Assembly (NCBI GenBank): GCA_017519045.1
Contig: JAFWTC010000040.1
Coordinates: 1-44,140 of the forward strand
Origin: Candidatus Methanomethylophilaceae archaeon
GTDB taxonomy: Archaea; Thermoplasmatota; Thermoplasmata; Methanomassiliicoccales; Methanomethylophilaceae
Direction: 5' to 3'
DNA: 44,140 nucleotides
Under the pieces are notes generated by a model, which was given only the letters and a program-made list of their open reading frames with translations, did no database searches and had not been told where the DNA came from. This document shows, in pieces, positions 5,164 to 44,140 of this stretch. Every line of letters starts with the position of its first letter. Position 1 is the stretch's first letter. Both the position numbers and the translations under genes were made by a program.

Positions 5164-5874
5164 GCACGGACAGGGCATTGAAGATAAAAATCGGTATCGG
5201 CGCATGGCTCTGAGACGGGACTTCACGTCCTCTTCCACGCGGTAGGACTCCGACGCCTTCCTGATCGTCATGCGCCTGGTCTCCTCGTCGAGGCGGTTGT
5301 CCCCTTCGAGGTAGGCCATCGTCCTCTCCGGATGCTTCGCCAGGCATGTGGCGAGACACCATGCCTTCCCCATCTTGAAGTAATAGCCGTCGTCTTGAGC
5401 CTGGTCCAGCTCCTCCAGGACGTCGTCCACGTGCCCGTCGTCCAGGAAATGGCTCATCATCATGACGGCCGCGAACCTCATCCGGAACTCCCCTCCGCGC
5501 CTCAGGCATTCGATGAGATAGCTCCAAAGCTGCCGTTTCTCATCTTTCTTGGGCTTCCAGGTGGTGCATAGCGAATCGCAGACCGACCAGTTGTCGATCA
5601 GGGGAATGAACCCGTCGTAAAGCCGCAGACGCTCGTCCACCGGAACCTTCGCGTAGGCGATGACCAGCCCTCTGAGCATGTAGTCCTCGAAATATTCCGG
5701 GTTCCAATCCTCCAGGTACCCGCGCCAGTCCTCCGAGGCTATGCGCTTGGCCAGCCTTCTCAGCGCCGGGATCCTGGCTCCGAGGAACCGATGCCCGCAC
5801 GGGGTGAGCGAGGCCTCGAACTCGGCGTTGGAGTCGTCCCTAAGCGACAGAAGCTCGTTCCTGACGTCCATCAT
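5164..5874 (-). CDS. AlkD-like DNA alkylation repair protein (no own stop codon)
   Basis: About 232 residues of a helical-repeat protein of the DNA alkylation repair family (AlkC/AlkD, PF08713), which removes alkylated bases. The motif PLIDNWSVCDSLC (about 91-103) carries the conserved Asp (D100) and Trp expected in the AlkD active cleft, and EYFEDYMLRGLVI and KHPERT are typical family segments. The start ATG at 5874 overlaps the stop of the upstream BspA-like gene as ATGA, indicating translational coupling. The normal family length ends near 5178, but the frame continues without a stop into the downstream membrane protein, so either a fusion protein is made or a stop was lost. The end given is the last base before that protein's likely Met. 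Confidence 0.75.
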
Positions 5875-8792
5875 CGCCCCTTCATGCGATACCTGTACGA
5901 AAGGATGGCGGCCAGCACGAAGAAGATCAGCAGGCCTATCGAAACGTAGGCCATGGTGTGGTCCTTCTCCACCGCTATCTCCTCGTCCAGGAGCTCTACG
6001 TCCCCGTAGCTCTCCCTCCAGCCGTCCTGCATCGCAGACGTGACGTAATACGTCACGGAGGACAGGTCCACCCCCTGGAAGGCATCCTCCATGCCGTCCG
6101 GCTTGGCGCAGTAGGCCTCTATCTCCTCGATGGACACACAGTTGGAGAACGCTCCCGCCCCCAGGGACCTCAGCGGCCCGCCCAGGACCACGCATTCCAG
6201 CAGCGGGACGGACCCGGAGTTCCCGAACGCGTTGCGGCCAAGGGCCTCGACGTTGTTCAGATCCACATACGGGATCGAGCGGCAGTTGAAGAAGGCGCCG
6301 TCGCCGATCTCCGTCACTGTGTCCGGGATGGATACCGTGCCCAGGGCGGAGCAGAAGCCGAAGCAGTCCGCCGGGATCCGCGAGACGGTCTTCCCGAGCT
6401 TCGCGCCAAGCAGGTTGGAGCATCCGTAGAAGGCGCCGTCGCCGATCTCCTTGACGCCGTCCGGAAGCGCGATCTTCGCGAAGCCCTTGGCCGAGCAGCC
6501 TTTGAACGCGCCAGCGCCCAGGAACAGTAGAGAACCGGGCAGCGAAGGAGCCGTGAGGGAAGTGCAGTTCCTGAACGCCTCGTCCCAGATGCGCTCGACT
6601 GAGTCCATCCCGAGCACGGTCTTGACCGACGAGCCGTAGAACGCGCGGGTCAGCACGTCGGCGACCGTGGACGGGATCTCGACCGTCTCCAGGGAATACT
6701 GGGAATACCTCGGCCCGTAGCCTCCGACGTCCCCGCGCATGAACGCCGCGTCCCCGACGTACCTGACGGCGTACTCCCTCCCGTTGGCCGAGACCGCCTT
6801 GGGTATCTGCACGTACTGGCCGGAGACGTACCTGTGCACGACGGCCTCGTCGCCCACCACGTAGTAGTAGAACGAGAAAGGGTCCTTCTTGTAGGCGCCG
6901 TCGTAGAGGTACAGGTCCATCGGAACCCCGGTGTCCCATCCCGAGGCGTCGGAAAGGCGGTGAATTGACACGGATGAAGGGGCCTGTCCTGAGAACTCAG
7001 GGGAGTCGCCCAGGAAGTAAACGTCGGCGGCCGGACACGACCAGCCCTCCCACGAGAAGCTGGTGACGGTCGGAGGGACCACAACCGCCGAGATGTTCCT
7101 GACGTCGTTGAAGGCGCCGGGAAGGATCCCGACCAGGGTCGCCGAGGCGTACGCCGAGGGCACGAACAGGATTCCGCCGAGGCAGTCCACGGCCATGGAG
7201 GACAAGGAAGCGGAGCGTCCGTCCTCGGACAGCCCGGAGATCGTAACCTCCCCGTAGGGGACGACCACCCTCTCCTTGACCTCGCCGGCGTCCTCGCTGT
7301 CGGTCCCGACCGCGTAGAACTGCACCGCGGAGGACGTGAAGGTGACCGCGCGGCCGTCATAGGTGGACTCCATCTTCTCGAGGGCGCCTCTGGACGAGAT
7401 GTTCCAGGCGGCGCCGTGGAGGCCCTCGCCCAAGGACACCGGTATGGTGAACGTCGCCGGCGAATCCCCCAGGTCCGTGACCGGACGGCCGTCCGCCTTC
7501 AGCGAGAGGCTGTAGAAGGCGGAGTAGTTTATCCTTTTCAAAGCGGACGTTATCTTGATGCTGGAAGGGCCGTTGGCCACCGAGAACGTCAGCGACCCGT
7601 CTCCCGCCAAACGGCACATCTCGTCCGCGGACATGGAGATCGCGCCCCTAGACACCGCTATGCTCAGCACGGCGTCTCCGCCCAGCACGTCCCTCACGGC
7701 TTTTAGGGACGTCCCGTCCACCGAAGCGACGAACCCGCCGTCGAACTGCGACACGTCGCATACGCATCCCGTTCCGGACGCCTTCATCTCCGTCGCGGTG
7801 GACGCGTCGTGTCTCACCGTGACGACGTTCCCGATGACCGACCCGTCCTGGGCGCGGTCCGCGCCGTAATGCCCGGGGACCTTCCTGATGTAGATGTCGG
7901 TGTCGCCGATGACCACCGTCCCCGGCCCGGCCTCCTTGGTGAACGCGGGATCCCTGTAGAGCTTCGCCATGCCGTCGCTGAACAGGTCCAGGACGGCCGC
8001 CGCGCCTATCGTGGAGTTGTACCTCACGGACGTCTCCGAGATCACCTCCCCGTCCGCATGGAACCTCACCTGGTATTCCCTGGGGATGGGGGCGTAGAAG
8101 GCGAACACGAACGCCGTGTCGGTGATGCCGTCGAACCTGGCGGGGCTGTTCCCGTTGGCGGTGATGCTCCAGCAGACGAACTCGTACGCGTACCCGACCG
8201 TGGGGCTCCTGGAAGGCTCTTCCGGAAGATCGGTGAGCGTGCCTCCGTAAGGAACCGTCCTCACATGGAGGAGCGTCCTGTCGTAGTCGAAGAAGCGGAC
8301 CTCGCAGGCCCTCGGCACGGCGGAGAACACCGCGTGGACAGAAATGTCCGACCTCACGTCGGATAGGTCCGCGCTCCAGCCCTCGAACCTGTAATCGTGC
8401 TCCTGGTCCGACGGCTTCCCTGGAATCACCGAATACCTGGCCGGAGAGCCGTCCATCACCACCTCCCTGTGGATGCAGGTGCCGCCCGGCGAGTCGTAAT
8501 AGCTCACCACGTGCGCGGCGGCCCTCCCCACGAACGTGGCCGTGAAGACCGTGTCCTCATGTATCGGCTTGGTGACGTCGCCCCAGAACACCGCCACGTC
8601 CTCCGGGACCTCCAGCTCCGGGATCAGGGAGAGGTCCGCCTGCGCCCCGTCGGCCACCTGCTGGACGGACAGCACCGTCCCGTCGGGAAGGGCGAACGAC
8701 ACCGTGTGGCTATCGGCGGCGTCGACGAAAGATGCTGGAAGGACCAGCGCCAGGAGCGCCGCCAGCAGGATCGTGGCCTCGGCTGCCCTCAT
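5871..8792 (-). CDS. BspA-like leucine-rich-repeat surface protein
   Basis: A 973-residue surface protein. It has a signal peptide (1-26, ending near FVDAADS), three to four Listeria-Bacteroides (Flg_new/InlB-B-like) repeats over about 28-290, a middle beta-rich stretch to about 480, BspA-type LRR_5 repeats (for example IGDGAFYGCSNL and IGDGAFFNCRSI) in roughly 500-930, and a C-terminal membrane anchor (about 943-964) followed by a basic RYRMKGR stop-transfer tail. Such proteins are taken as adhesins or surface-layer proteins. A strong GGAGGGGG precedes the ATG at 8792. The start lies 83 bases inside the end of the ATPase gene, so it is part of the same operon. The same architecture occurs in the first gene of that operon. 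Confidence 0.85.
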   Translation of the reverse strand: MRAAEATILLAALLALVLPASFVDAADSHTVSFALPDGTVLSVQQVADGAQADLSLIPELEVPEDVAVFWGDVTKPIHEDTVFTATFVGRAAAHVVSYYDSPGGTCIHREVVMDGSPARYSVIPGKPSDQEHDYRFEGWSADLSDVRSDISVHAVFSAVPRACEVRFFDYDRTLLHVRTVPYGGTLTDLPEEPSRSPTVGYAYEFVCWSITANGNSPARFDGITDTAFVFAFYAPIPREYQVRFHADGEVISETSVRYNSTIGAAAVLDLFSDGMAKLYRDPAFTKEAGPGTVVIGDTDIYIRKVPGHYGADRAQDGSVIGNVVTVRHDASTATEMKASGTGCVCDVSQFDGGFVASVDGTSLKAVRDVLGGDAVLSIAVSRGAISMSADEMCRLAGDGSLTFSVANGPSSIKITSALKRINYSAFYSLSLKADGRPVTDLGDSPATFTIPVSLGEGLHGAAWNISSRGALEKMESTYDGRAVTFTSSAVQFYAVGTDSEDAGEVKERVVVPYGEVTISGLSEDGRSASLSSMAVDCLGGILFVPSAYASATLVGILPGAFNDVRNISAVVVPPTVTSFSWEGWSCPAADVYFLGDSPEFSGQAPSSVSIHRLSDASGWDTGVPMDLYLYDGAYKKDPFSFYYYVVGDEAVVHRYVSGQYVQIPKAVSANGREYAVRYVGDAAFMRGDVGGYGPRYSQYSLETVEIPSTVADVLTRAFYGSSVKTVLGMDSVERIWDEAFRNCTSLTAPSLPGSLLFLGAGAFKGCSAKGFAKIALPDGVKEIGDGAFYGCSNLLGAKLGKTVSRIPADCFGFCSALGTVSIPDTVTEIGDGAFFNCRSIPYVDLNNVEALGRNAFGNSGSVPLLECVVLGGPLRSLGAGAFSNCVSIEEIEAYCAKPDGMEDAFQGVDLSSVTYYVTSAMQDGWRESYGDVELLDEEIAVEKDHTMAYVSIGLLIFFVLAAILSYRYRMKGR

Positions 8793-9594
8793 CCCCCTCC
8801 TCCCTGGTCTTGATATACCTCTTGGGGAGGACGTAGATCTCCCCCTCCCTGTCGGTGCCGACGCAGGACTCGACCTCGTACACCTCCCTGATCAGGTCCT
8901 CGTCGATGACCTTCTTGGGGTCGCCGATGGTCACTATGGATCCTTTCTTCATTATTATGCAGAGGTCGCAGTACCTCGCCATCAGGGAGATGTCGTGCTC
9001 CGCGACGATCACGGTCATGTCGCTGCGCGCCATCTTCTGGAGGTATTCCATCACCTCCAGCTTGTACTTCATGTCCAGATGGGACGTGGGCTCGTCCACG
9101 AGCATGATCTTCGGGTTCTGCACGTACGCCTTGGCTATCAGCGTGCGCTGCTTCTCGCCCGATGAGAGGAGAGACACCTGCTTCCTCCTGTACTGGTCCA
9201 GGCCGAACGTGCGGAGGGCCTCCCTCACGACCTTCTCATCGTCCTCGGACTCCCACCAGACCCTGTTGACGAAGGGATACCTGCCGAGCATCACCATGTC
9301 CATGACGGACATCCCGTATATCGAACCGACCTCCGCGGGGACGTTGGCCACCACCCTGGCTATGTCGGCCGGCCTCATCCTCGATATGTCCTCCCCGTCG
9401 ACCCTGACGGTCCCGGTCCAGGACGTGTGGAGCTTGTTTATGCACTTCATCATCGTGGACTTCCCGCAGCCGTTCGGCCCGATCAGGCCGACGAGAAGCC
9501 CCTTGGGGACGCTGAACGAGACGCCGTGCAAAGCCTCGAAGTCGTCGAACCTCATCCTGAGGCCCTCGACCTCCAGCAAAGGCTCATCCGTCAT
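8710..9594 (-). CDS. ABC transporter ATP-binding protein, BtuD/FecE type
   Basis: A 294-residue ATPase for import of metal chelates or cobalamin. Walker A GPNGCGKST (about 38-46), a signature LLSSGEKQR, Walker B KIMLVDEP, the D-loop SHLD and switch His in AEHDISL are all present. It pairs with the permease just upstream (11-base overlap) and with the BtuF-like protein of the same operon. Homology fades at about residue 262 (near ..YIKTREEG); the last 30 residues come from reading through 83 bases of the following BspA-like gene and are low-complexity (arginine- and glycine-rich), so the tail is probably not functional. Cobalamin is the preferred substrate from context only. Confidence 0.88.
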   Translation of the reverse strand: MTDEPLLEVEGLRMRFDDFEALHGVSFSVPKGLLVGLIGPNGCGKSTMMKCINKLHTSWTGTVRVDGEDISRMRPADIARVVANVPAEVGSIYGMSVMDMVMLGRYPFVNRVWWESEDDEKVVREALRTFGLDQYRRKQVSLLSSGEKQRTLIAKAYVQNPKIMLVDEPTSHLDMKYKLEVMEYLQKMARSDMTVIVAEHDISLMARYCDLCIIMKKGSIVTIGDPKKVIDEDLIREVYEVESCVGTDREGEIYVLPKRYIKTREEGDEGSRGHDPAGGAPGAGPSSIFRRRRR

Positions 9595-10735
9595 ATTCGC
9601 GCCCCCTCTTCACCAGCATGTACGCGAACACCGGGGTCCCGATCAGCGCGGTTATGGCGCCAACGGGGAGCTCAAGCGGCGATATGGCCACCCTCGCTAT
9701 GATGTCCGCGAACAGCATCAGGCATCCCCCCAGGACTATGGACGCCGGCATGATCAGCCTGTGGTCGCTCCCGAGCATCATCCTGCACGCATGAGGGACG
9801 ATGAGCCCCACGAACCCTATGACCCCTACGAAGGCGACGCAGACGGAAGTCAGGACGGAGGCCACGACCATCATAATCGCCTTGAACCTCCTGACGTTCA
9901 TCCCCAGGAGCCTGGCCTGGTCCTCCCCCGACATGAACAGGTTGAACTCCCTCGCCCAGAGCATCGCGATGACCGCGATCCCTATCGACGGGATCAGGAC
10001 GAGGAAGGCGTTCTCCCAGGTGATGTTGCCGAAGGACCCGTACAGCCACCACATGACGTTGGTGAGGTTGTCCTTGTTCAGCGACAGGAATATCGTCTGA
10101 ACAGATGAGAATGCGAATCCGACTATCACTCCGGAAAGGATGTAGTTGGTGGCCGACCCTCCGGCTCCCTCGGCGACCGCCAGCGTGAGCCCGAAGGCCA
10201 GAAGCCCTCCCGCGATCGCCGCCAGCGGGATGATGTATGCGGAATAGCCGGCGAGGAAGGACAGGGACGCCAGGGTCGTGGACGCGGCTACCGCCAGGCA
10301 TCCCGCCCCGGAGGACACCCCGGTGATGTACGGGTCCACCAGCGGGTTCCTGATGAGGGCCTGGAACATGCACCCGGCTATCGCGAGCCCGGCTCCCACG
10401 CCTATGGCCGCGACCACCCTCGGAAGCCTCGACGAGAACACGTACAGCTCCTCGGTGGTCAGGTCCTCCCCGCCCTTGGATATGGCGGAGACCAGCGCCG
10501 AGAACGCGTCGGTTATCGGTATTATGCCTCCGGACGATATGGAGATCGATATCAGGAACATCGCGAACAGGAACACCAGCCCCGCGGCCAGGATTATCCT
10601 GAAGCGGCGCTTCTTCACCCCGACCTCGCTCTTGTCGTCCTCTGAGGGGACCATGCTCTCGCTCATCCCCTTGAATCCCTTGCGGAGCGTGGAGAACGCC
10701 CCCTTCAGCGGTCCGCGCCCGCTATCCTCGACCAT
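9584..10735 (-). CDS. ABC transporter permease, BtuC/FecCD type
   Basis: A 383-residue permease of the FecCD family (cobalamin, heme or Fe-siderophore import), with about ten membrane helices after a charged N-terminal tail of some 45 residues. Family hallmarks include LPRVVAAIGVGAGLAIAG, NPLVDPYITGVSSGAG and GFVGLIVPHACRMMLGSDHR, the latter contacting the ATPase. The ATG at 10735 directly abuts the stop of the upstream propeller gene (10736-10738). It overlaps the ATPase start by 11 bases. The long basic/acidic N-terminal extension (with MSESMVPSEDDKSE) is unusual; the Met within it is an alternative start. Confidence 0.88.
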   Translation of the reverse strand: MVEDSGRGPLKGAFSTLRKGFKGMSESMVPSEDDKSEVGVKKRRFRIILAAGLVFLFAMFLISISISSGGIIPITDAFSALVSAISKGGEDLTTEELYVFSSRLPRVVAAIGVGAGLAIAGCMFQALIRNPLVDPYITGVSSGAGCLAVAASTTLASLSFLAGYSAYIIPLAAIAGGLLAFGLTLAVAEGAGGSATNYILSGVIVGFAFSSVQTIFLSLNKDNLTNVMWWLYGSFGNITWENAFLVLIPSIGIAVIAMLWAREFNLFMSGEDQARLLGMNVRRFKAIMMVVASVLTSVCVAFVGVIGFVGLIVPHACRMMLGSDHRLIMPASIVLGGCLMLFADIIARVAISPLELPVGAITALIGTPVFAYMLVKRGREYDG

Positions 10736-12637
10736 TCACGCACCTCTGTAGAGCTTGACGACGCACAGCGTGAACGCCGCCAGCAATGCGAAAAGGGCTA
10801 TCCATGACCAGTGGGCCAGCCCCTGCGACTCGTACGTTATGTCCGACGTGGAGTCCCTAGGGATCCCGCGCGTCTCCGATATCACGTAAACTGCGCCGTA
10901 GTCGTTGCCTACGAACACCTTGCCGTCCGCCACGGTCGGGGCGCACATGCTGTACGCGGACCCCCCGTACGGGGACGCCTTGGCCTTCCAGACCACCGTG
11001 CCCGTGTCGGCGTCCATGCACCAGACCCATCCGCCCAGCGACCCCTCGGATCCCGGCGAGTAGTCCATGCTGTAGACTCTGCCGTCGCAATAGGTGACCC
11101 CGCCTATCGACAGGGCGTCGGTGTCCTGGACCCAGCCCATGGAGCAGTCGGACAGCCAGAACGAGTAGTATCCGCTGACCAGCTCCCTCTCCGCGCCGGT
11201 GTCGTGGTCGGTCACCGACCTCTCCCCGTCCGGCGTGTAGGAAACGTACGAGTAGAACCTGTCCCCGAACACCGCCGGCTTGCTGCACAGTAGCCCCTTC
11301 TGCCAGATCACGGACCCGTCGCGGAGGTCCACCAGCATGATCCCTCCGCGGCTGGAGGTCATGCCGCCGTCCGCATAGCACACTAGGATCCTCTCCCCGG
11401 GGCAGACGGATACGGAGGTGACCGCGCCCACCGGATTCCCGGACAGGTCGTGCATCTGCCTGCCCCAGACGGGCCCGCCGTCGACGGCGCTGACGCATGT
11501 GAGCCTTCCGGAATAGTTCCCGGAGACTAGAACCCTCTCGCCGCCCAGCTCCGCCAGATACGGCGGATAGTAGTAGAAGCATCCCCTGAGGGAGTCCTCC
11601 GGGACGTGGGTCCAGATCTCCTGGAATCCCTCCTCCCTGTCTACGGAGTAGCACCTGGTAACGCCGTCGGAGGCGTTGAAGTACAGTGCGCCGTTCTCGT
11701 AGACGGCGTTGGTGACGCCCGCGTTGACGTGTATCCTGTCCCTCACGACGGGCGCGTCGCCCTTCATCACCTTGTACTCGGTGGACCTGGCCATGTTGCA
11801 CTTGTCCGGGGACGAGCCTTCCGGATACAGCTCGGCCAGAGGCTCCCCAGTGAACCTGTCGAAGCAGTAGACGTGCCAGTTCCCGGAAGTCAGCACTATG
11901 GTGTCACCTATTATCACCGGAGTGGTGATCTCTATGTTTCCTGAATCAGAATAGCTGAGGGACCACGCCACCTGCTTGTTCACAGGATCCAGACAGTAAA
12001 GCCATGCCAGGCTCTCCATGCCGACGCTCCCGTAAACCCCGGCGACCGTGTGGTAGATCAGGCCGTCGGCGTACAGGATGCTGGAATCCACCGCCCCCTG
12101 GTAGGCGTTGTACCACTCCAGCGGAACCGCGACGCTGTCCGGCCCGTAGGAGCGGCTGACGCCATCGGACGAGGAGTTCCCCCTGAAGGAGGTCCAGACG
12201 TCCTCGTAATCCGGAGTGGATGCGGGCACGGCCAACCCGGCTGGATAGAATCCGAGCGCCATGCTGCCTCCCAGATATTCCAGATCCACGTCGTATGGCT
12301 CGGGATCCCAGGACACGCCGTTCCAGGAATACAGCCTCCAGGAGCATTCCTGCATGCCCGGGGTGGACTCGCTCCCGACGGTCACGGGGCCGCGTCCTCC
12401 CACGGACAGGACCCTCACGCCGTCCTGGAAGTCCTCGAACTCTATCGCGACCCCGGCGGAGGAGAGCGTGCCTTCCAGGGTGTCCTGGACGGATCCGGAA
12501 GGAGCCACGTCGTACCAGCGGATGTCCCCGTTCCCGAAATCGATCAGGAGCCTCTCGTGACTGTCCTCCCCGTCGGCAGACGAGGCGGGAACGGCCAGAA
12601 ACAGCAGCAGAAGCAGAAGCGTCAGTCCCTTTGCCAT
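10736..12637 (-). CDS. Surface protein: DUF4430-like domain + PQQ-type beta-propeller + membrane anchor
   Basis: A 633-residue protein with a signal peptide (1-22), an N-terminal domain (about 28-135) that resembles DUF4430/transcobalamin-like domains (LLIDFGNGDIRWYDV, then WRLYSWNGVSWDP and LGFYPAGL), a beta-propeller of PQQ/outer-membrane-assembly type over about 140-590 (repeated blades such as WLYCLDPVNKQVAWSL and WCMDADTGTVVWKAKA) and a C-terminal helix (about 604-626) ending in KLYRGA. It is predicted to sit outside the cell anchored at its C terminus. The start at 12637 overlaps the upstream BtuF-like gene by 16 bases. A longer open frame upstream of 12637 is the shadow of that gene. 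Role in cofactor capture is inferred from the operon; no enzyme activity is implied by the propeller. Confidence 0.8.
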   Translation of the reverse strand: MAKGLTLLLLLLFLAVPASSADGEDSHERLLIDFGNGDIRWYDVAPSGSVQDTLEGTLSSAGVAIEFEDFQDGVRVLSVGGRGPVTVGSESTPGMQECSWRLYSWNGVSWDPEPYDVDLEYLGGSMALGFYPAGLAVPASTPDYEDVWTSFRGNSSSDGVSRSYGPDSVAVPLEWYNAYQGAVDSSILYADGLIYHTVAGVYGSVGMESLAWLYCLDPVNKQVAWSLSYSDSGNIEITTPVIIGDTIVLTSGNWHVYCFDRFTGEPLAELYPEGSSPDKCNMARSTEYKVMKGDAPVVRDRIHVNAGVTNAVYENGALYFNASDGVTRCYSVDREEGFQEIWTHVPEDSLRGCFYYYPPYLAELGGERVLVSGNYSGRLTCVSAVDGGPVWGRQMHDLSGNPVGAVTSVSVCPGERILVCYADGGMTSSRGGIMLVDLRDGSVIWQKGLLCSKPAVFGDRFYSYVSYTPDGERSVTDHDTGAERELVSGYYSFWLSDCSMGWVQDTDALSIGGVTYCDGRVYSMDYSPGSEGSLGGWVWCMDADTGTVVWKAKASPYGGSAYSMCAPTVADGKVFVGNDYGAVYVISETRGIPRDSTSDITYESQGLAHWSWIALFALLAAFTLCVVKLYRGA

Positions 12638-14046
12638 TCCAGCAGCCCCTGCGCCTTCACGTAAGTGAGGTATCCGTTGTCCCCGTCGTTGTAGCTGTTC
12701 CCGTAATACTTCACGCCTACGGTATCCGTCGGATCCGCCGCCTCGAAGGAATCCGGATCCATTATCTTCGCCAGAAGCTCCAGCGACTCCGGAAGCCTGG
12801 CCCCCGGCCTGGAGAGGAGGCTGGCAGCGTCGGCCGAGAACACGTAGACCTCGCCGTTCCTGTACGCAGGAGTCTCCTTCCACATGTCGTTCAGGCTGGC
12901 CAGCACCGTCCGATATTCCCTCTGGGACTTGATCTCGGACAGCTCGTAGATTATGACGATCACGTCGGGCTGCCTGTCGTACACCGCCTCCTTGTCCACC
13001 ATGAACCAGGACTCGGACTCTGTGGAGAACACGTTGACGGCGCCGAGGGACTCTATCATGTTGGTGACGTAGGTGTTCCCTCCGGCCGTGTACGGCGACT
13101 CGCTCACGCCCAGCGAGACGAACACCTTCTTCCCGCTGAGGTCCGCGACCCTGCATATGTTGTTGATCGCCTCGTTCACGTCCTTGATGTAGGCGTTGCC
13201 GACCTCGGAGAATCCCAGCGCGGAGGCGCATATCCAGAGGTTCTTGAGGAGATCGTCGGTGTTGTTGGTGGCGTTCAGCACCACGCAGTTTATCCCCGCC
13301 TTCCTGAGCTTGTCCGCCATGGTGACGTGCTCCCCGGTCCCGCCGTCCATGAACACCAGGTCGGGGGACTCCGCCGCTATGAGCTCGAAGTTCGGATCGG
13401 TGAAACCCCCGACTATGCGGACGTCTCCGCTCCTCTGGCGTTCCACCAGGCTGTGCGGGTAGTCGCAGTAGCGGTCGGTGGCGATCACGTACCGGAGGCC
13501 CCCTACCGCGGCCACGGTCTCAGCCACCGAGGGCGCCAGGGCCACGATCCTGAGCTTCTCTCCAGCGTTGTTGAGGCCGCGGTCGGCGTAGTTGTAATAC
13601 GTGAACCCGGTGGCGTCCACGGCCGGCATCATCCCGCTTCCCGTCCCGGTTCTCGCCCACGATATTATCTTCTGGCTGGAGACGTCGAAGGAGCCGGGAT
13701 CCTCGACCTCCGCCCAGCGGACGTCCTTCCCCTGGCCCTCGAGCACGTACATGCCCCAGCTCACGTTGAGAAGCTGGGGGACGTTGTTCACGGAATACAC
13801 CGTGCCGTCGTCGTTCATCTCCAGCTTGTATCCCCTGGAGCCGCACACGGACTCCAGGGCGTCCATGCCGCTCATGCTGTCCTCGAAGCGGAGCTCCGCC
13901 CATTCGACGTTGTAGTAGGCGTAATCGATCATCACGCCCTGCTTCTCGTCGACGGTGTCCACCGTGAAGCCGATGAACGGCACCGAGGCCACGACCGCCA
14001 CGGCTATGACGGCCGCGACGACCAACTTCACGTTAGAGGCCTTCAT
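12622..14046 (-). CDS. DUF4430-like + BtuF-like substrate-binding protein
   Basis: A 474-residue membrane-tethered binding protein. An N-terminal helix (7-27) is an uncleaved anchor or signal. Residues about 38-135 resemble a DUF4430 (transcobalamin C-domain-like) fold: MDALESVCGSRGYKLEMNDD, then a Trp-rich WGMYVLEGQG. Residues about 165-430 are a helical-backbone periplasmic binding domain of BtuF/FepB type (LRIVALAPSVAETVAAVGG, ESPDLVFMDGG, ADLSGKKVFVSLG). Such domains deliver cobalamin, heme or siderophores to FecCD permeases, and the matching permease and ATPase follow downstream. The ATG at 14046 overlaps the upstream stop as ATGA. Joining a cobalamin-grip-like domain to a BtuF-like domain in one chain suggests a corrinoid ligand; ligand identity is inference. 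Confidence 0.82.
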   Translation of the reverse strand: MKASNVKLVVAAVIAVAVVASVPFIGFTVDTVDEKQGVMIDYAYYNVEWAELRFEDSMSGMDALESVCGSRGYKLEMNDDGTVYSVNNVPQLLNVSWGMYVLEGQGKDVRWAEVEDPGSFDVSSQKIISWARTGTGSGMMPAVDATGFTYYNYADRGLNNAGEKLRIVALAPSVAETVAAVGGLRYVIATDRYCDYPHSLVERQRSGDVRIVGGFTDPNFELIAAESPDLVFMDGGTGEHVTMADKLRKAGINCVVLNATNNTDDLLKNLWICASALGFSEVGNAYIKDVNEAINNICRVADLSGKKVFVSLGVSESPYTAGGNTYVTNMIESLGAVNVFSTESESWFMVDKEAVYDRQPDVIVIIYELSEIKSQREYRTVLASLNDMWKETPAYRNGEVYVFSADAASLLSRPGARLPESLELLAKIMDPDSFEAADPTDTVGVKYYGNSYNDGDNGYLTYVKAQGLLEWQRD

Positions 14047-16073
14047 CGGCTCTTCCTGCTCCTCATGACCAGGAACGCGACCACCAGCAGGGCCACGACC
14101 GCCGCCGCGCCTATGGCGACGTACATCATCGTGTTGTCGCCGGAGGAGGTGGGCGCCGAGGCGTCCGTCAGCTTTCCGCCGGAGCCCGCGAACTCGCGTC
14201 CCGCCAGGTCCGATGCGGACGTGACCTTCTTGGCCCCGTCCGAGAACTCCACCGAGAACGAGTCTGCGGAGACCGACTTGAGCATGTGAGAGAACGACAC
14301 GTGCTCCAAGGCCCCGCATCCGGAGAACGCCGAGCTGGATATCGTCTCCGCATGCCCCATCTTGAGCTCCTTGAGGGCGGAGCATCCCTGGAACGCCTTC
14401 TCCCCTATGACCGCGAACGGGCCCGTGTCGACGCTCGCGAGGTACTTGCATCCGGAGAACGCCTCGTCCCCTATCTTCATACCCCGGTCCTGCTCCGCCC
14501 CCAGCGGCCCGCTCCTGAGCGTGAAGGCGTCCTTGAGGGCCAGCGAGGTTATGCCGGACCCGCTGAACGCCCTGGCGCCGATGGAGTCCACCGAGAACGA
14601 GCGCCCGTCGAAGGAGACGGTCGCGGGGACGACCAACGCGCCGACCGCGGAATCCGCTCCGATGACGGCCGCCTTGGCAGGATTCAACGACGTGACCCTG
14701 CACCTCAGCCCGTCGGAAGTGAACTCGTCCCCGACGGCTGCGCCCTTGGAGACGGCCTTGAACACCGGGGTCACGTCCATGTCAGACACCACGGAGGAGA
14801 GGTCCTTGCTCCAGCCGGCGAACTCGTAGGAGAAGCCGTCTGAATCCGGCTTGTACGGGACGGACCCTTCGAAACGGGACGGGGATCCGCTGACGACGCG
14901 GTCCACGTACAAGACGGCCTTCATGGACTCGTCCCAGTAGCGGACCAGATACACCTTGGCCTCCTCGAACTTGGCCACGAACTTCGTGTCGCCCTTTATC
15001 TTGGCGGTGGTGTCCCCCCATCCGGCGAATATCTTCCCGGCGGGGGCCTCGGGCTCCGGAACGAGGGACATGTCCGGAACGCCGCCGTATTCGAGGTACT
15101 GGCTGGCGATGACCGTCCCGTCCTCGAGCTCGAACGTGACCAGAGGGGTGCTGGAAATGCAGAATATCTCATCGGTCTCCGGGTTAGGCTCAGGGCCGCC
15201 CTTGTCGATGACGAAGCCCTCGGCGTACGGGTCCTCGGTCGAGATGAGGTAGATGCACTCGACGTACTTGTACACGGCCGGGTCGTAGAACCCCAGGGTC
15301 CAGTCGTTGTAGTACCACTCATGGTCCACCCAGGTCCACTGGCTCCAGTAGGACCAGACGTCGTTCTCGATCAGGACGTCGCCGAGGCCGAACATGCTGT
15401 TGATCCAGCTCTGCAGGTCATTCCCGTTGGCGTCCATTCCGGACTTCAGGTCTATCTCGAACCCGTTGGAGTCCATGGCGTCCTTCAGGACCTCCCCCAT
15501 GGAGGACCCGGTCCCCTTGAGCCAGAAACCCTCCTTCCTGGTCTCTGCGTCGAACGCGGCCAGCATGTCCGGGACGTCGGGAGCGAATCCGTTGGCGAAC
15601 CTTATGAACACGTAGCCCTCGGCCTCTGGCTTGAAATCCGGGACTGAATACACGTTGGTTCCGTCGACGTTGCTGAGGGTGCTCACGTGGAGGCAGTATG
15701 CGGACCCGGAGGCCATCATGCCGTCGGAGTTGGGGTCGAAGGCCATCATCCCCCAGCCCGAGGTCCCCAGCTGAAGCCACTGGTGCACGCGCCAGTAATG
15801 GCTGTCGTCCAGCTCGCGGCCGTCCACGGACCTGATGTTGCCCCTGTCGTTGAGCGCCATCGTCTTCCCCTGGTCGGCCAGGGCGGCCTCGATGGCGCCC
15901 CTTACGTTGGAAACACCGTCCACCACGGACAGGTCGTACCCGCCGCCCTCGTTCTCCACGTAGACCCTTACGCCGTCACATGTGGCCGCAGAGCTCTCGT
16001 CCGACATCAGAAATGCCGGAGCCAGCAGCACCAGCGCGACGACGACCCCTATCATGACGCTCCAGAAGCGCAT
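14043..16073 (-). CDS. Surface protein with two DUF4430-like domains, Listeria-Bacteroides repeats and LRR
   Basis: A 676-residue protein, first gene of the operon. Signal peptide about 1-30; DUF4430-like domain 1 about 35-133 (SHYWRVHQWLQLGTSGWGMM, a YWxxxQW core); domain 2 about 153-277 (GSSMGEVLKDAMDSNGFEI, then WSYWSQWTWVDHEW); Listeria-Bacteroides repeats about 311-440; BspA-type LRR_5 repeats about 480-600 (IGDEAFSGCKYL, IGEKAFQGCSAL); membrane anchor about 649-670 with tail RSRKSR. DUF4430 is related to the C-terminal domain of transcobalamin and intrinsic factor. I infer a surface receptor that hands ligand to the BtuF-like protein made from the next gene. The repeat and LRR half resembles the 973-residue protein at the other end of the operon. 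Confidence 0.8.
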   Translation of the reverse strand: MRFWSVMIGVVVALVLLAPAFLMSDESSAATCDGVRVYVENEGGGYDLSVVDGVSNVRGAIEAALADQGKTMALNDRGNIRSVDGRELDDSHYWRVHQWLQLGTSGWGMMAFDPNSDGMMASGSAYCLHVSTLSNVDGTNVYSVPDFKPEAEGYVFIRFANGFAPDVPDMLAAFDAETRKEGFWLKGTGSSMGEVLKDAMDSNGFEIDLKSGMDANGNDLQSWINSMFGLGDVLIENDVWSYWSQWTWVDHEWYYNDWTLGFYDPAVYKYVECIYLISTEDPYAEGFVIDKGGPEPNPETDEIFCISSTPLVTFELEDGTVIASQYLEYGGVPDMSLVPEPEAPAGKIFAGWGDTTAKIKGDTKFVAKFEEAKVYLVRYWDESMKAVLYVDRVVSGSPSRFEGSVPYKPDSDGFSYEFAGWSKDLSSVVSDMDVTPVFKAVSKGAAVGDEFTSDGLRCRVTSLNPAKAAVIGADSAVGALVVPATVSFDGRSFSVDSIGARAFSGSGITSLALKDAFTLRSGPLGAEQDRGMKIGDEAFSGCKYLASVDTGPFAVIGEKAFQGCSALKELKMGHAETISSSAFSGCGALEHVSFSHMLKSVSADSFSVEFSDGAKKVTSASDLAGREFAGSGGKLTDASAPTSSGDNTMMYVAIGAAAVVALLVVAFLVMRSRKSR

Positions 16074-21319: not shown

Positions 21320-23646
21320 CAGAGGAGCTCGTCCACGATCTCCACCAGGTCCCTGACCTTGATCTTCCTGTCTCCCTTGGCGGAATCCAGGTTGTTGACG
21401 CAGAACGGGCAGGTGGTTATCATCACGTCGGCGAACGAGGCCTCGTCCAGCCTGGTCTCGGCGATGTCCTTGGACTCCTGGGGGTATGCGGACCTCACGC
21501 CCCCGCCGCCTCCGCAGCAGTGGCTGGTCTTGCGGTTGTACTCCATCTCCCTGAACTCCAGGCCGGGGATCTTCCTGATGACCTCCCTGGGGGCCTCGTA
21601 CACGCCGCAGTGCCTTCCGAGATGGCAGGGGTCGTGGTAGGTGGCCACGCCCTCCATAGGCTTGAGCTTGAGGTCCTGGGCGGCCAGGAACTCGGTGATG
21701 TGGAGCACCTCGAACGGCACGTCCACGTACTTGGGGTACTCGAGCTTGAACATCCTGTAGCATCCGGCGCAGGCGAGGACGAGCTTCTCGACCCCCATGG
21801 CCTTGATGGCCTCGACGTTCCTCCTCATCAGCTCGGTGACGTCCTCCTGGGGCCAGCCGACCCTCTGCAGGACGGACCCGCAGCAGACCTCGTCGACCGT
21901 GGTGTAGTCGACCTTGAGCTTGTCCAGGATGGAGAAGGTCGCCTGCGCGGTCTTCTTCGACCTGAAGGTGGCGGTGCATCCCACGAAGTATCCGACCTTC
22001 GCAGGGCGGGGGGCCTTTCCGAGAGCCTCATGCCTGGAGGTCTTCTCGCCGAAGGGGTTGCCGTCGGCCATGACGTTCTCGCACATCGTCTTGTGCTTGG
22101 GCAGGATGTGCCCGTTCTTGACCAGGTCGGCGCGGCACATCTCGATGATGTCCACGATCTCCACCTTGGAGGGGCATCTCCTGACGCAGTCGGCGCAGGT
22201 GGTGCAGGTGTACATGTTCCTGACGACGGAATCGTCCGGCTCGAGCTCTCCGTTGAGCAAACCGTAGGTCAGGACTATGCGCCCCCTGGACAGGGCGGTG
22301 TCCCACCCGATGGCCTTGAAAGAGGGGCAGACGCTCTTGCAGAACCCGCACATCGTACAGACGTTGAGGGCCTTCCTGACCGCCTCCAACCTGTCCGGGG
22401 AGAACGAGGCGACCCTGGGTATGGTGACGCTGCCGTCCATCAGCACTATGACCTTCGCGTCGGGCTTCTCCTTCAAGGCGTCCCCGACCGCGTCGGCGAC
22501 GTTGCTATAAGGAGTGATGTTGGCGTCGGAGATGAGCTTGGGGTCGAGGTCCGTGACGGCGCAGATCTTCGCCCAGGTGGCGATCTCGGCCATCTTGGCA
22601 GCCTTGTGGTACCCGAGCTTGTACTCGGCCTTGAGGTTCTCCAGGACCTGCCTGGGGTCCTTGGAGGTGGAGAGCTGCTTGAGGAATGTGGCATGGCCGA
22701 CGCCCTCCCTGCACTTGGAGACCATTATGATGGTCCCGCCCTCCTTCAAAGCCCACTTCCCGTTGTCCAGGGCCTTCTGCGACTGATACAGGTCGACGTC
22801 CATGGGGTACGGAGCGACGGAGATGACGATGTCGGCCTTCTCCGGGATGGGGACGGAGAACACCTCGTTGGCCCATCCGACGGCGCGGTCGAACGCCTTG
22901 TTCAGATCGCCGGACGCGACCTTGTAGATGTTCTGATGCCTGTCCAGGACCATCTGGATGGAGAAGATCTTCTTCCCCTTCACGACCTCGAGGGCGTCCA
23001 TCATGTCCTCGTGGACCGGGTTCCCCTTCAGGGCCAGGGACTGGGCGTCCATGCTCATGGCGAGCTTGTGGTTCGCCTCCACGGTCTTGAATGACGCCAC
23101 CCCGGGCAGGAAGGACTTCCTCCCGCCGGTGTATCCCGCGAAGTAGTGGGGCTCCACGGAGGTGATGATGACGAGCCTGTCGGCGTCGACGGCGACCTTG
23201 TTGACTTCCATCGGGGTGCCATTCTTGGACGTTCCCAGGAACACGCATTCGGAGTTCTTGGCGTCATGGCAGACGATGCGGTCCTTCAGCTCCTGGCGGT
23301 GGGATCCGAAGACGAAGCCGTACTCCTCCTCGGTCATGTCCCTGTGCGTCCCCGTGGCGATGAGATACCTGGCGGACCTGAGGTCCATCCTCTTGGAGAG
23401 GGCGTCCAGGACCTTGGCCGTGGGGGTCGGGCGGGTCCCGTCGTTCACTATGAAAACGACGTCCTTGCCGCCCTCGAGGAAGCTCTCCAGCGAGTCGTAT
23501 CCTATGGGATCGTCGATGGATGCGCCGATCACGGCGTCGGGGTCGCCGCAGACGACGTCCTTGGGATAGAACGTGCCTATGTAGTTGGCATCGGGGATGT
23601 CCACCTTCTGGACCCCGTCCTTGCCGTATTTCACGTCGATTATCAT
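21319..23646 (-). CDS. Fusion of LarA-like (nickel-pincer) domain and HdrD/GlcF-like iron-sulfur domain
   Basis: A 775-residue fusion. Residues 1-about 415 are a LarA (lactate racemase) domain. All residues that bind or react with the nickel-pincer nucleotide in L. plantarum LarA have counterparts: D69 (VNDGTRPTPT), H101 (GTHRDM), H167 and K177 (EPHYFAGYTGGRK), H193 (EANHK). Residues about 425-500 hold two 4Fe-4S motifs, C430xxCxxCxxxC and C481xxCxxCxxxC. Residues about 550-760 have two CCG-type domains (VDEVCCGSVL with CAGC; HDPCHLG with SHCCGGGGG and CPFC), as in HdrD/GlcF. LarA abstracts a hydride from a 2-hydroxyacid; fused to an electron-transfer module this suggests an oxidoreductase. 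Cytosolic; no signal. A TATA-like ATTAATTATC is near 23673-23683. Confidence 0.88.
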   Translation of the reverse strand: MIIDVKYGKDGVQKVDIPDANYIGTFYPKDVVCGDPDAVIGASIDDPIGYDSLESFLEGGKDVVFIVNDGTRPTPTAKVLDALSKRMDLRSARYLIATGTHRDMTEEEYGFVFGSHRQELKDRIVCHDAKNSECVFLGTSKNGTPMEVNKVAVDADRLVIITSVEPHYFAGYTGGRKSFLPGVASFKTVEANHKLAMSMDAQSLALKGNPVHEDMMDALEVVKGKKIFSIQMVLDRHQNIYKVASGDLNKAFDRAVGWANEVFSVPIPEKADIVISVAPYPMDVDLYQSQKALDNGKWALKEGGTIIMVSKCREGVGHATFLKQLSTSKDPRQVLENLKAEYKLGYHKAAKMAEIATWAKICAVTDLDPKLISDANITPYSNVADAVGDALKEKPDAKVIVLMDGSVTIPRVASFSPDRLEAVRKALNVCTMCGFCKSVCPSFKAIGWDTALSRGRIVLTYGLLNGELEPDDSVVRNMYTCTTCADCVRRCPSKVEIVDIIEMCRADLVKNGHILPKHKTMCENVMADGNPFGEKTSRHEALGKAPRPAKVGYFVGCTATFRSKKTAQATFSILDKLKVDYTTVDEVCCGSVLQRVGWPQEDVTELMRRNVEAIKAMGVEKLVLACAGCYRMFKLEYPKYVDVPFEVLHITEFLAAQDLKLKPMEGVATYHDPCHLGRHCGVYEAPREVIRKIPGLEFREMEYNRKTSHCCGGGGGVRSAYPQESKDIAETRLDEASFADVMITTCPFCVNNLDSAKGDRKIKVRDLVEIVDELL

Positions 23647-23703: not shown

Positions 23704-24534
23704 TCAGGCGTCATCCGTCCCGCTCGTCGGCCTTATGGTCAGATTGTCCTCCAGGTGAGAGTCGAGCTCGTCCCCGTCCAGCAAGGCGATGTGCGGACGG
23801 CCTTGGATGTCGATGATCTGGCATTCTATCCCGTATAGGATTTTTATGTTGTCCTCGGTCAGGACCTCCGCCGGGGTGCCGTCAGCATAGATGCGGTGGT
23901 CGTACAGCATCACGACCCTGTCCGCGTACATCGAGGTCACGTTCAGGTCGTGGCAGATGGTGACGACGGTTATGCCCTTCAGCCTGGCGACGTCCCTCAG
24001 AAGCCTCATTACCAGCATCTGGTACTTGACGTCCAGATTGGCGGTGGGCTCGTCCAGGAGCATCAGCTTCGGCTCCTGCGTCAGGCTCCTGGCGATCATC
24101 ACCTTCTGATGCTGCCCCGCCGAGAGCTCGTCGAACCCCTGCATCGCGTATTTCTGCATGCCGAGGAGCTTGAGGTTCTCGGCGGCTATGAGGACGTCCT
24201 CCTGGGTCGTCAGCGTCCCGGCATGGGGGAGCCTCCCGGTCAGGACGGTGTCCAGGACGCTCATGGAGAACGTCGTGTCCTCGGTATGGGGGACGAAGCT
24301 CACAAGCTTGGCCAGATCCTTGAGGGAATAGGTCTTGAGGTCCTTCCCGTCGAGGTACACGGTCCCGGACGTGGGGGCCTGGAGCTTGTTCATGCAATGC
24401 ATCAGGGTGGATTTTCCCGCCCCGTTCGGCCCCAGGATGCATACGAGCTCCGGCTTGTCGATGACCAGGTTAATGTCCTTGAAGACGGGGACGCTTCCGT
24501 ATGAGAAGCTCAGGTCCTCCAGCCTTATCTCCAT
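23704..24534 (-). CDS. ABC transporter ATP-binding protein, FecE/BtuD type (second system)
   Basis: A 276-residue ATPase: Walker A GPNGAGKST, signature DELSAGQHQKV (with ELSAG in place of LSGGQ), Walker B KLMLLDEPTANLD, switch His in TICHDLNV. It energises the FecCD-type permease just upstream, whose stop overlaps its ATG by one base (24534). The C-terminal 45 residues (from about IECQIIDIQGRP) are an acidic extension beyond the usual fold. Substrate class is metal chelate, heme or cobalamin. Confidence 0.88.
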   Translation of the reverse strand: MEIRLEDLSFSYGSVPVFKDINLVIDKPELVCILGPNGAGKSTLMHCMNKLQAPTSGTVYLDGKDLKTYSLKDLAKLVSFVPHTEDTTFSMSVLDTVLTGRLPHAGTLTTQEDVLIAAENLKLLGMQKYAMQGFDELSAGQHQKVMIARSLTQEPKLMLLDEPTANLDVKYQMLVMRLLRDVARLKGITVVTICHDLNVTSMYADRVVMLYDHRIYADGTPAEVLTEDNIKILYGIECQIIDIQGRPHIALLDGDELDSHLEDNLTIRPTSGTDDA

Positions 24535-25619
24535 CACCACACCTCCTTCTTCTGCCTGATGATCAGGAACAGGAATACCGGGCCTCCGACGAAGGCTGTG
24601 ACGATCCCTATCGGAAGGGCCGTCGTGGTGAACGATTTGGCCAATATGTCGCAAAGAACCAGCATGGTCGCCCCCATGAGCATGGACCCGGGAATCAGAT
24701 ACCTGTTGTCGGAGCCGAGGAATATCCTGGTGACATGGGGGGCCACCAATCCCACGAAACCTATGATTCCGGTGAAGCTGACGACGGAGGCGGACACCAC
24801 CGAGATTGTTATGAGAAGAATCACCCTCATCCTCTCGACGTTGATCCCGACCGTCTTGGCGTAATTGTCGCCGGAGTTCATGGCGTTGAGGAATCTGGAC
24901 AAGATCATCAGGACCACGGATCCTGCCGCCACCACGGACGCCATCACCGGGAGGGAGGACCAGCTCGCCTTGTTCAAGGTCCCGATGGTCCACTCGAACG
25001 CGGACGCCGTGGTCTCGGCGTCGGATACGAGCATCATGTACTGCGTCATGGCGTTGAAGATGTACATCACGGAGATTCCAGCGAGGATCATCATCGCCGC
25101 GGTAGCCCTCTTGAACCTCGACAGCAGAACGATCACGGCCGCGGGGACGAGGGAGAAGACGAAGGCGAATATCACGGTGGCAGCGCTGTGGGAGCCGATG
25201 GATATGCCCAACGTTATCGCGATGACCGCGCCGAAGCTAGCTCCGGAAGAAATCCCAGTGGTGTACGGATCGGCCAACGGGTTCTTCATCATGCTCTGCA
25301 TGGAGGCTCCGGATACCGCCAATCCCGCGCCGGCAACCACGGCGGTCAGAAGACGGGGCATGCGCTGTTCCCAAACGACGCGCTGGTCGATGTTCTCCAG
25401 CGGGCTACCGAGATCGAACAGGTGATCGACTATCACCTGGTATACCTCCCCCATCGTGATGGGATACGACCCGACGGTCATGCCGTAAAGGGAAGCTACC
25501 AGCAGAACCACAATAAGGGACGCTATCGCGATTACTTTCTTGTAACGAAATGAAGAATACTGCCTGTAGATGATCCTGACGTCCTCGTCGGTCGTCTCAA
25601 TTACTTCTTTTTTGCTTAT
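24534..25619 (-). CDS. ABC transporter permease, FecCD type (second system); start codon unclear
   Basis: A FecCD-family permease with about ten helices (RMPRLLTAVVAGAGLAVSG, NPLADPYTTGISSGASFG, GIIGFVGLVAPHVTRIFLGS). The first standard start in frame is GTG at 25511, but this cuts the first membrane helix (KVIAIASLIVVLLVASLYG). The frame is open and protein-like further upstream (SKKEVIETTDEDVRIIYRQ), and a strong GGAGGGG at 25632-25638 and a TATA box at 25671-25681 lie before that. No ATG, GTG or TTG is in frame between; ATA at 25617-25619 is one candidate, used here as the boundary. The minimal gene is 24534-25511 (325 residues). Confidence 0.82.
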   Translation of the reverse strand: MSKKEVIETTDEDVRIIYRQYSSFRYKKVIAIASLIVVLLVASLYGMTVGSYPITMGEVYQVIVDHLFDLGSPLENIDQRVVWEQRMPRLLTAVVAGAGLAVSGASMQSMMKNPLADPYTTGISSGASFGAVIAITLGISIGSHSAATVIFAFVFSLVPAAVIVLLSRFKRATAAMMILAGISVMYIFNAMTQYMMLVSDAETTASAFEWTIGTLNKASWSSLPVMASVVAAGSVVLMILSRFLNAMNSGDNYAKTVGINVERMRVILLITISVVSASVVSFTGIIGFVGLVAPHVTRIFLGSDNRYLIPGSMLMGATMLVLCDILAKSFTTTALPIGIVTAFVGGPVFLFLIIRQKKEVW

Positions 25620-40910: not shown

Positions 40911-40936
40911 TATCGCATCCGAGTTGGATTGGATAT

Positions 40937-40948
40937 CCTATATCTATC
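40937..40948 (+). promoter_or_regulatory. TATA box of large BspA-like gene
   Basis: TCCTATATCTAT, about 60-70 bases before the ATG at 41007; GGAG lies eight to eleven bases before the ATG. Confidence 0.45.
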
Positions 40949-41006
40949 TCAGAACGCATGCCGACACGGGTCCGACATTCAATGCGCCGGCCCCGGAGAT
41001 GTCAGC

Positions 41007-44000: not shown

Positions 44001-44140
44001 GTCGACAAGGACCTGTCGATCAGCGTCTCGTCCCAATACTACGCCACTGGATCGTTCATCAACTCCGTCGGATTCGACACCCCCACGGCCGGCGACTACG
44101 TCCAATCTTGGACGTTCGGAAGAGGCGGAACCACCGGGGC
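41007..44140 (+). CDS. Very large BspA-like surface protein (3' end cut by window)
   Basis: An open frame of at least 1044 codons running off the window. Signal peptide about 1-30 (LKATTAIAILIVAAAAFSSL). Residues about 60-520 are BspA-type LRR_5 repeats of some 22-24 residues (for example IGANAFDGCSSL, IPEYCFFGCKGL). A second LRR-like block lies near 600-680, then beta-rich domains. Near residues 855-925 is a clear Listeria-Bacteroides repeat (VTFDARGGSPVTS...GFSFIGWYAS...VTVYAGW). The last visible residues (DYVQSWTFGRGG) resemble the entry to the PQQ-like propeller of the protein at 10736-12637. A membrane anchor would be expected beyond the window. Probable adhesin; ligand unknown. GGA-glycine and TCC codons are favoured over the GGG/GGC mix of neighbours. 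Confidence 0.85.
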   Translation, partial: MGANVLKATTAIAILIVAAAAFSSLQTSDAEPVNIDGIEYDLKEGGGVRTAMVTAYSVTTMTGDVAIPSQVTHSDKTYAVTGLAKTLRGNAGITSVSLPETVVSIDPYFFNGCTSLKSVTMDGVLSIPLQCFGRCTSLTEVSAVSATSIGANAFDGCSSLSKISIGTPETISDYAFRGCSDLTSFELDEKTVLGTAPFANSGIAEPMICDGLLVYVPSNIGSYTIPSSVYTIGAGAFYNVALDHLDVPGTVLTVSDYGFYCSKISSIAFDPAVAGIGNYAFADVAANSSRLTEVMLPTAITYLGEGVFQNCGSLKTIDIPEEIVMIGTDTFNKCSSLESVGLHGATLFGDTVFSGCSALKSFTFPEGCIPGAGMFRECRSLESVTLCQSIADIPDYMFYKCAKMTSFEIPDQVKTIGKYALSESAVEEIAIPATVDPDGIDKQAFRACASLRKVTFMGPLVTIPEYCFFGCKGLSAMEIRGMVKTENANAFNNTSLKEFIVHTGTPFKDSVMFNNAALKPLIKDDETNGCKYVDVKVPSGSGYADAKVLISSGSTPIKIDGSYAGFVWDALDSALSNGGTISSGTSDIRMIDGSVYRGSELLYVSPSTPPSIENGTLAIRPFATSLTGVDTVSVPASVKTIDTEGISAPQLKHVVMYGSPSTVPGSISSPETKVYFLEGNYHPEVSVGTPLSGYFADTDGGRVLFTINDTEHSTFSESHSGNTIDFEIGLLEGYTDSAVTASADGKPVPGSAGKFSLKDVSKDTEVMVSGVDLNRYDVSCPKENGFKWSISQSKGIIHGDEVLFGIRALPGYRLSESFAAMIDGVKTAPFYSEDDYRVYSFTAIKDVTITVTGVQPNDSFTVTFDARGGSPVTSQRILDGACASIPSEPTRTGFSFIGWYASSDLKDLYEFGPVHGDVTVYAGWADDSAGNYTVSFDADNGSVTAYANGSSTPIASGTKVPAGSTVKVVFSPDEGCEATWWTIDGATEWDCSSERVFIVDKDLSISVSSQYYATGSFINSVGFDTPTAGDYVQSWTFGRGGTTG

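Follow-up and report, generated by a model that had tools for sequence, protein, structure and literature searches.

We analyzed a cluster of six genes on the minus strand of a 44,140-nucleotide stretch of DNA from a Candidatus Methanomethylophilaceae archaeon, referred to throughout, at its full length, as the window. The cluster encodes an importer of the BtuCDF class together with extracellular proteins that bear domains which, by profile comparison, are of the transcobalamin type (DUF4430), and it is quite probably an operon for the capture and import of corrinoids (vitamin B12, cobinamide, and their kin). The genes are as follows.

14043..16073, minus strand: surface protein A, 676 aa, with a signal peptide and a C-terminal membrane anchor (both by eye from the sequence), two DUF4430-like domains (residues ~31-137 and ~151-283; hhalign 60.6% and 56.7% to DUF4430), Listeria-Bacteroides-type repeats (Flg_new 19.2 bits, under the cut-off), and a short LRR_5 stretch (49.1 bits)
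12622..14046, minus strand: BtuF-like protein F, 474 aa, with an N-terminal membrane anchor (by eye), a DUF4430-like domain (35-137; hhalign 91.2%), and a Peripla_BP_2 domain (167-405; Pfam)
10736..12637, minus strand: propeller protein Q, 633 aa, with a signal peptide and a C-terminal membrane anchor (by eye), a DUF4430-like domain (25-136; hhalign 69.8%), and a PQQ_2/BamB-type beta-propeller
9584..10735, minus strand: FecCD/BtuC-type permease C, 383 aa (Pfam, NCBIfam, and PDB matches, and a tree)
8710..9594, minus strand: BtuD-type ATPase D, 294 aa, with the corrinoid ATP-binding cassette (ABC) transporter ATPase as its best NCBIfam model (213.6 bits, cut-off 537)
5871..8792, minus strand: BspA-type leucine-rich repeat (LRR) surface protein, 973 aa, a homolog of the C-terminal portion of A

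An earlier, sequence-only reading had described six co-directional, overlapping genes with these parts, and the genes proved to be as described, with Pfam scores over the cut-off for Peripla_BP_2 (100.6 bits), PQQ_2 (57.1), FecCD (296.6), ABC_tran (101.4), and LRR_5 (191.3). Four of the five junctions overlap (by 4, 16, 11, and 83 nucleotides), while the propeller and permease genes abut. The 83-nucleotide overlap is with the start of the LRR gene, and there the ATPase carries about 29 extra C-terminal residues (8710-8799, minus strand) that had no counterpart in the three relatives compared; the extension may stem from a change of frame or from an error in sequencing. Apart from the end of an archaeal 16S gene at positions 1-98, the window held no cobalamin riboswitch or other Rfam element at the gathering score. 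The window is close to Candidatus Methanomethylophilaceae rumen genomes, and its BtuF-like protein is 92% identical to that of a water-buffalo rumen assembly (L032; here L0xx denotes loci and G0xx genomes of the comparison).

The recurring extracellular domain escaped direct detection. Specifically, the DUF4430 model PF14478 (gathering score 23.8) gave no match at E ≤ 10 in any of the six cluster proteins and none over its cut-off in this genome, in which one sub-threshold place fell outside the cluster. Because Pfam failed to detect DUF4430 directly in the window, we used profile-profile comparison, with 30 Pfam-found DUF4430 domains from the phylum as the reference set and query sets of 41 BtuF-like members, 38 propeller members, 24 first domains of A, and 36 second domains of A. 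The query sets have no domain in common, the two A sets have 21 open reading frames in common, and all members were picked with profiles derived from overlapping iterations. The hhalign figures given in the list above come from these sets; the controls reached at most 0.9% (27 windows of other domains) and 1.7% (20 shuffles of the columns of the BtuF set). They replaced an earlier round, in which the sets had common open reading frames (F 93.0, Q 91.4, first domain of A 75.4, and second domain of A 30.4%); with the replacement three of the figures fell and the fourth, that of the second domain of A, rose. The DUF4430 kinship of the window domains, which the sequence-only reading had proposed for checking against the PF14478 family, holds at the level of profiles (56.7-91.2%, vs. 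at most 0.9% for the other-domain controls), the second domain of A being the weakest call of the set.

The earlier suggestion that three consecutive extracellular proteins share one type of N-terminal domain was likewise borne out, in that the BtuF-like, propeller, and first A domains matched each other at 96-97% in hhalign, and the second A domain matched them at 87-89%. HMMER agreed in part: in a test on 30 sequences, the profile of the BtuF set recovered a number of true DUF4430 domains, the best at E 1.7e-8. Additionally, two proteins elsewhere in the comparison were matched by both PF14478 and the window-domain profile, one at L102:5474-5905 (E 2.9e-10 and E 2.5e-6, respectively) and the other the L100 propeller protein, through its N-terminal domain. 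When the DUF4430 profile was compared with the PDB, the top three matches were transcobalamin-1 and two intrinsic-factor chains, all of them weak (E 0.012-0.083).

We found homologs of the BtuF-like protein (P0002, E ≤ 1e-10) in 116 of the 147 genomes of the order and homologs of the propeller protein (P0003) in 74; the domain profile matched 30 of the 292 genomes in the phylum, and 27 of these 30 belong to this order. In 21 window-type loci, inspection showed that the order BtuF-like, propeller, permease, ATPase was kept wherever the contig continued, and this conservation in relatives argues that the arrangement is not due to chance. A rule-based tally of the same loci counted the propeller in 19, the permease in 18, and the ATPase in 16, its misses arising at contig ends (L032, L036), at split open reading frames (L040, L044), and from failure of the rule (L048); in the last three loci the genes were present on inspection. 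The split genes are the propeller gene of L040 (8024-9922, minus strand) and the permease gene of L044 (13440-14695, plus strand), each split over two open frames, either through decay or through an error of assembly. An A protein lay upstream in 11 of the 21 loci, and A domains were on the downstream protein in 7, including L057, where the match was weak. A single polypeptide of ~1,250-1,290 aa carries both the A domains and the LRR part in six relatives (L037, L038, L039, L041, L042, and L056), so that the first and last genes of the window look like products of one receptor family.

Sister architectures recombine the same parts. The propeller and permease occupied one open frame in L049 (995 aa), L050, L051 (from the same genome as the window), L052, L055, L057, and L091, and L053 joined a propeller, a DUF4430-like domain, and BtuF in one 1,044-aa frame. 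Domain-bearing BtuF with an adjoining permease and no propeller was present in L089 and L093, and alike in L090, which is cut by a contig end. Finally, L054, L058, L095, and L096 had BtuF with neither a DUF4430-like domain nor a propeller.

The operon encodes a FecCD permease, an ABC ATPase, and a Peripla_BP_2 protein by Pfam, which together define an importer of the BtuCDF type (type II), as had been proposed from the sequence. A second FecCD permease and ATPase pair lies at window positions 23707-25511 (minus strand); in the two neighboring frames tested, Pfam recognized no binding protein for it, and its permease grouped with distant FecCD rows, apart from the permease of the operon studied here.

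Gene context in relatives speaks for corrinoids as the substrate. The domain-bearing BtuF, permease, and ATPase of L089 are located between cbiL, cbiC, cbiD, cbiG, and cbiJET on one side and cobD and cbiB on the other (NCBIfam), and cobD, cbiB, and cbiZ follow the domain-bearing BtuF of L093, the propeller-permease form of L049, and the domain-less BtuF of L095 and L096. The cbiZ product is adenosylcobinamide amidohydrolase by its Pfam name, an enzyme of corrinoid salvage. The window-type operon of L092 (G057) lies ~3 kb from the edge of a cbiC...cbiD-cbiG cluster. Among the matches listed, a scope that applies equally to the CbiZ and CbiD neighbors counted here and below, there were 150 BtuF-like places, 41 of them window-type (≥39% identity) and 109 other. 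Forty-nine of the latter 109 lay within 15 kb of a CbiZ match, where ~2.6 would be expected under random placement in 1.5 Mb genomes with no contig breaks. In the split by architecture, for which the CbiZ list covered the relevant contigs and the weakest CbiD rows were omitted, this count was again 49 of 109, and 19 of the 76 places that span a DUF4430-like domain had CbiZ within 15 kb; the CbiZ link of domain-bearing BtuF is far above chance too.

Next, we placed the permease in a maximum-likelihood tree of 40 rows, from which matches shorter than 230 aa (including that of L032) were dropped. The clade of the window (19 rows, support 100/100) and that of the fused propeller-permeases (8 rows, 98/92) sat among salvage-linked permeases, a nesting that depends on the choice of outgroup (five other FecCD permeases, four of which were flagged for long branches, as was L054). 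By this topology the permease groups with the transporters found in corrinoid salvage operons, from which it is most likely descended; the ancestral system very probably imported corrinoids, and the window copy has likely kept that substrate. Gene context and tree together support the corrinoid substrate put forward in the sequence-only reading, and we regard it as likely. Two window-type operons from another family of the order (L043 and L045, of G015 and G016) fell inside the window permease clade, which may represent transfer between families.

An independent line of sequence evidence for the substrate appears in DUF4430 and propeller genes beside energy-coupling factor (ECF) transporters. 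In L098 and L100, and with differences in L101, a propeller protein and a Pfam-level DUF4430 domain are followed by a CbiQ-like T component and a double ECF ATPase. The single PDB match (E ≤ 1) of the L100 S component was 6FNP (E 3.7e-12), the chain A of which (182 aa) we took as the S component of ECF-CbrT, a dedicated B12 transporter (PMC5997447). A profile of DUF4430-adjacent S components that included the L100 row matched 6FNP at E 2.8e-12; since the profile reached only E 0.13 without that row, CbrT likeness is claimed for L100 alone. ECF S or T genes were within 1.5 kb of 19 of the 30 DUF4430 loci and in none of 186 control tiles, which came from other genomes and form a loose control. 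One of these loci, L075, is the same place as L100, the source of the query proteins, and therefore 18 of 29 are independent. We counted DUF6580 as S-like because it weakly matches the L100 S component and because that component in turn matches DUF6580. Proteins of this kind at L062:652-1740 and L084:1486-2511 are membrane proteins that carry DUF4430 at the C-terminus, and in a single-sequence PDB search the best match of the L062 protein was transcobalamin-1 (E 0.0071). The linkage of DUF4430 genes to cbiZ-cobD-cbiB, together with the one CbrT-like ECF S component, points to corrinoids.

From these parts a route into the cell can be proposed. At the cell surface, corrinoids would be held or gathered by the two-domain protein A and the LRR protein. 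The propeller Q would sit over the permease as a docking platform and also catch corrinoid there, and the DUF4430 domain on BtuF would be a second jaw, closing on the ligand like the C-terminal domain in transcobalamin, before permease C and ATPase D drive import. We infer all of these binding steps; the parts list, the kinship, and the genomic context come from comparison. These methanogens are methylotrophic, and corrinoids serve their methyltransferases. Methanomethylophilus alvi is reported to have a single membrane and neither wall nor S-layer (PMC10673518); in such a cell, anchored receptors would be in reach of the medium as well as of the importer. The wall-less cell assumed in the sequence-only reading has this report behind it, and the report concerns another genome. 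If a beta-propeller and a BtuC-type permease in one chain are real in the protein, they would alter the picture of the outer face of such importers.

A broader proposal, which we offer tentatively and rate as somewhat less likely than not, is that transcobalamin-type domains are a portable corrinoid-capture module of gut and rumen archaea that serves both BtuCDF and ECF importers, classes unrelated to each other, as a jaw on BtuF, on the propeller docking tower of the permease (one frame with it in sister clusters), and doubled on anchored LRR receptors. If true, it would amount to a receptor-to-importer relay in a wall-less cell, parallel to the animal B12 carriers and to BtuG of Bacteroides. 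B12 handling has been proposed to shape the place of these archaea in low-methane sheep (PMC10804542), and the cluster offers a concrete, testable receptor set.

Several observations weigh against corrinoid capture as drawn here, and we give them with the alternatives on which they bear. The first alternative, which we consider unlikely and yet the strongest of its kind, is a corrinoid importer with ordinary capture by BtuF, in which the DUF4430-like domains are spacers or adhesion modules without ligand contact. The link to CbiZ is densest for domain-less BtuF (30 of 33 places, vs. the 19 of 76 for domain-bearing BtuF), and the salvage-linked L054, L058, L095, and L096 do without the domain. 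The surface proteins are rich in repeats (LRR_5, Listeria-Bacteroides), and the domains are very divergent from DUF4430, with no Pfam match. The window-domain profile alone retrieved no transcobalamin from the PDB, only matches at chance level. Against a role as spacers, three different partners retain the domain, which also turns up beside ECF-type importers and even as a fusion to an ECF-S-like protein. Within that ECF line, the L100 S component is itself named as riboflavin-type (Pfam 52.3 bits, cut-off 26.7; NCBIfam 28.2 of 99).

The second alternative, rather improbable in our estimate, holds that after duplication from a corrinoid importer the window-type copy shifted to heme, siderophore, F420-0, or another tetrapyrrole, and that the surface domains hold that ligand. 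None of the 41 window-type places was within 15 kb of CbiZ among the matches listed, a figure that the architecture split returned again, and a single one (L092, G057) was within 15 kb of CbiD; several copies occur in some genomes. All three importer proteins missed their NCBIfam equivalog cut-offs (BtuC 213.8 of 334, BtuD 213.6 of 537, and BtuF 60.3 of 234 bits), the permease scored 213.9 bits with the F420-0 permease model against the 213.8 for BtuC, and the best NCBIfam model of the binding protein was TIGR04281 and not BtuF. In the PDB, the permease matched FhuB (187 bits) and the heme permease HmuU (167) ahead of BtuC (161), and the top match of the binding protein was 4m7o, named 'Iron-binding protein' (E 2.8e-11), followed by entries named Vitamin B12-binding protein (E 1.2e-10 and up). 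Proteins and models for other ligands were thus matched at least as well as BtuC and BtuF, and the sequence models alone leave the substrate undecided. A shift of ligand fits poorly, however, with the unusual domain set, which is the same as that of salvage-linked sisters, with the position of the permease in the tree, with the transcobalamin-type domains, and with the window-type copy that lies beside a cbi cluster.

Corrinoid import is also not forced upon this archaeon, since its genome has cbiD and three CbiZ matches, among the matches listed. The earlier description of the cell as dependent on corrinoid methyltransferases does not stand if read as an inability to synthesize corrinoids. 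Loss of corrinoid synthesis, considered as the reason for the receptor domains, was unsupported, given cbiD in this genome and in 91 of the 147 genomes of the order.

That the propeller is a redox enzyme (a pyrroloquinoline quinone-type dehydrogenase) that processes the ligand before import is highly improbable: such a role has the Pfam PQQ_2 match in its favor, yet the nearest solved relatives of Q by sequence are BamB entries (the PDB matches at E ≤ 0.1), BamB being a scaffold, sister systems encode propeller and permease in a single frame, and pqqE is stated to be absent from Methanomassiliicoccales (PMC10804542).

We return to corrinoid capture and its relation to known systems. The window has in common with the BtuCDF vitamin B12 importer a FecCD permease, an ABC ATPase, and a Peripla_BP_2 binding protein. 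It differs in having a binding protein with a membrane anchor (by eye) and an additional DUF4430-like domain, in that the operon adds a propeller and surface proteins, and in its scores under the BtuC, BtuD, and BtuF equivalog cut-offs. Burroughs et al. described in 2007 a transcobalamin-like clade of SLBB proteins, comprising secreted or surface beta-grasp domains that were proposed to scavenge B12, with operons that included CbiO/CbiQ, sometimes a second paralog per operon, and one beta-propeller fusion (PMC1796856). That prokaryotic domains of this sort are related to transcobalamin has been published (PMC1796856). We equate DUF4430 with this clade, as its Pfam name, an equation of our own that is supported by the DUF4430 search of the PDB and by PMC4350170. 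Secreted or surface domains of the DUF4430 clade are common to both, whereas the partner in the window is of the BtuCDF type and that of the 2007 operons is CbiO/CbiQ (ECF-type) (PMC1796856); further differences are that the domain is fused to BtuF and that, in relatives, the genes are linked to those of archaeal corrinoid salvage. The association of the DUF4430 module with BtuCDF-type importers is an addition to the ECF association and propeller fusion of 2007. The cluster is also relevant to what the archaeal transcobalamin-like proteins scavenge, a point not settled in 2007, when a distinct metabolite was suggested as a possibility (PMC1796856). A protein at L102:6657-7181 (minus strand), with an ArsR-like N-terminal sequence (by eye) and a weak C-terminal DUF4430 match, resembles the helix-turn-helix fusions reported in the same paper (PMC1796856).

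BtuG of Bacteroides is a seven-bladed surface propeller that associates with the outer-membrane transporter BtuB and binds B12 with femtomolar affinity (PMC6143338). The likeness, a surface beta-propeller beside a B12-type transport system, makes BtuG a precedent for the role of Q by analogy, Q being PQQ/BamB-like by sequence. Kinship of Q with BtuG found no sequence support: the Pfam matches were to PQQ_2-type models and no BtuG was named among the PDB matches. In the case of ECF-CbrT (PMC5997447, 6FNP), the transporter class is absent from the window, and the likeness lies in the L100 S component beside its DUF4430/propeller pair. In strain LGM-RCC1, BtuCDF beside adhesin-like proteins was proposed in 2024 to capture B12, with a gene order the same as that of the window (PMC10804542); the words 'DUF', 'propeller', and 'transcobalamin' are absent from the main text of that paper (PMC10804542). 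The architecture had been called undescribed in the sequence-only reading, which goes too far for transcobalamin-like surface proteins (PMC1796856) and for BtuCDF with adhesins (PMC10804542). As to the BtuF fusion and the propeller-permease fusion, no description was found in the literature searched, which covered few subscription papers. Apparently new are the fusion of DUF4430 to BtuF, the single propeller-permease frame in sister clusters, the linkage to salvage genes, and the two-domain and LRR receptors.

Two further features were present in the window. At 40929-44138 (plus strand), a second long surface protein with LRR_5 and Listeria-Bacteroides repeats runs off the window end. At 21322-23646 (minus strand), lactate-racemase-like domains (Lar_N, LarA_C), a 4Fe-4S dicluster domain, and CCG cysteine-rich domains share one 775-aa frame; as we read it, a nickel-pincer-enzyme fold is here oddly combined with a module of the heterodisulfide-reductase type.

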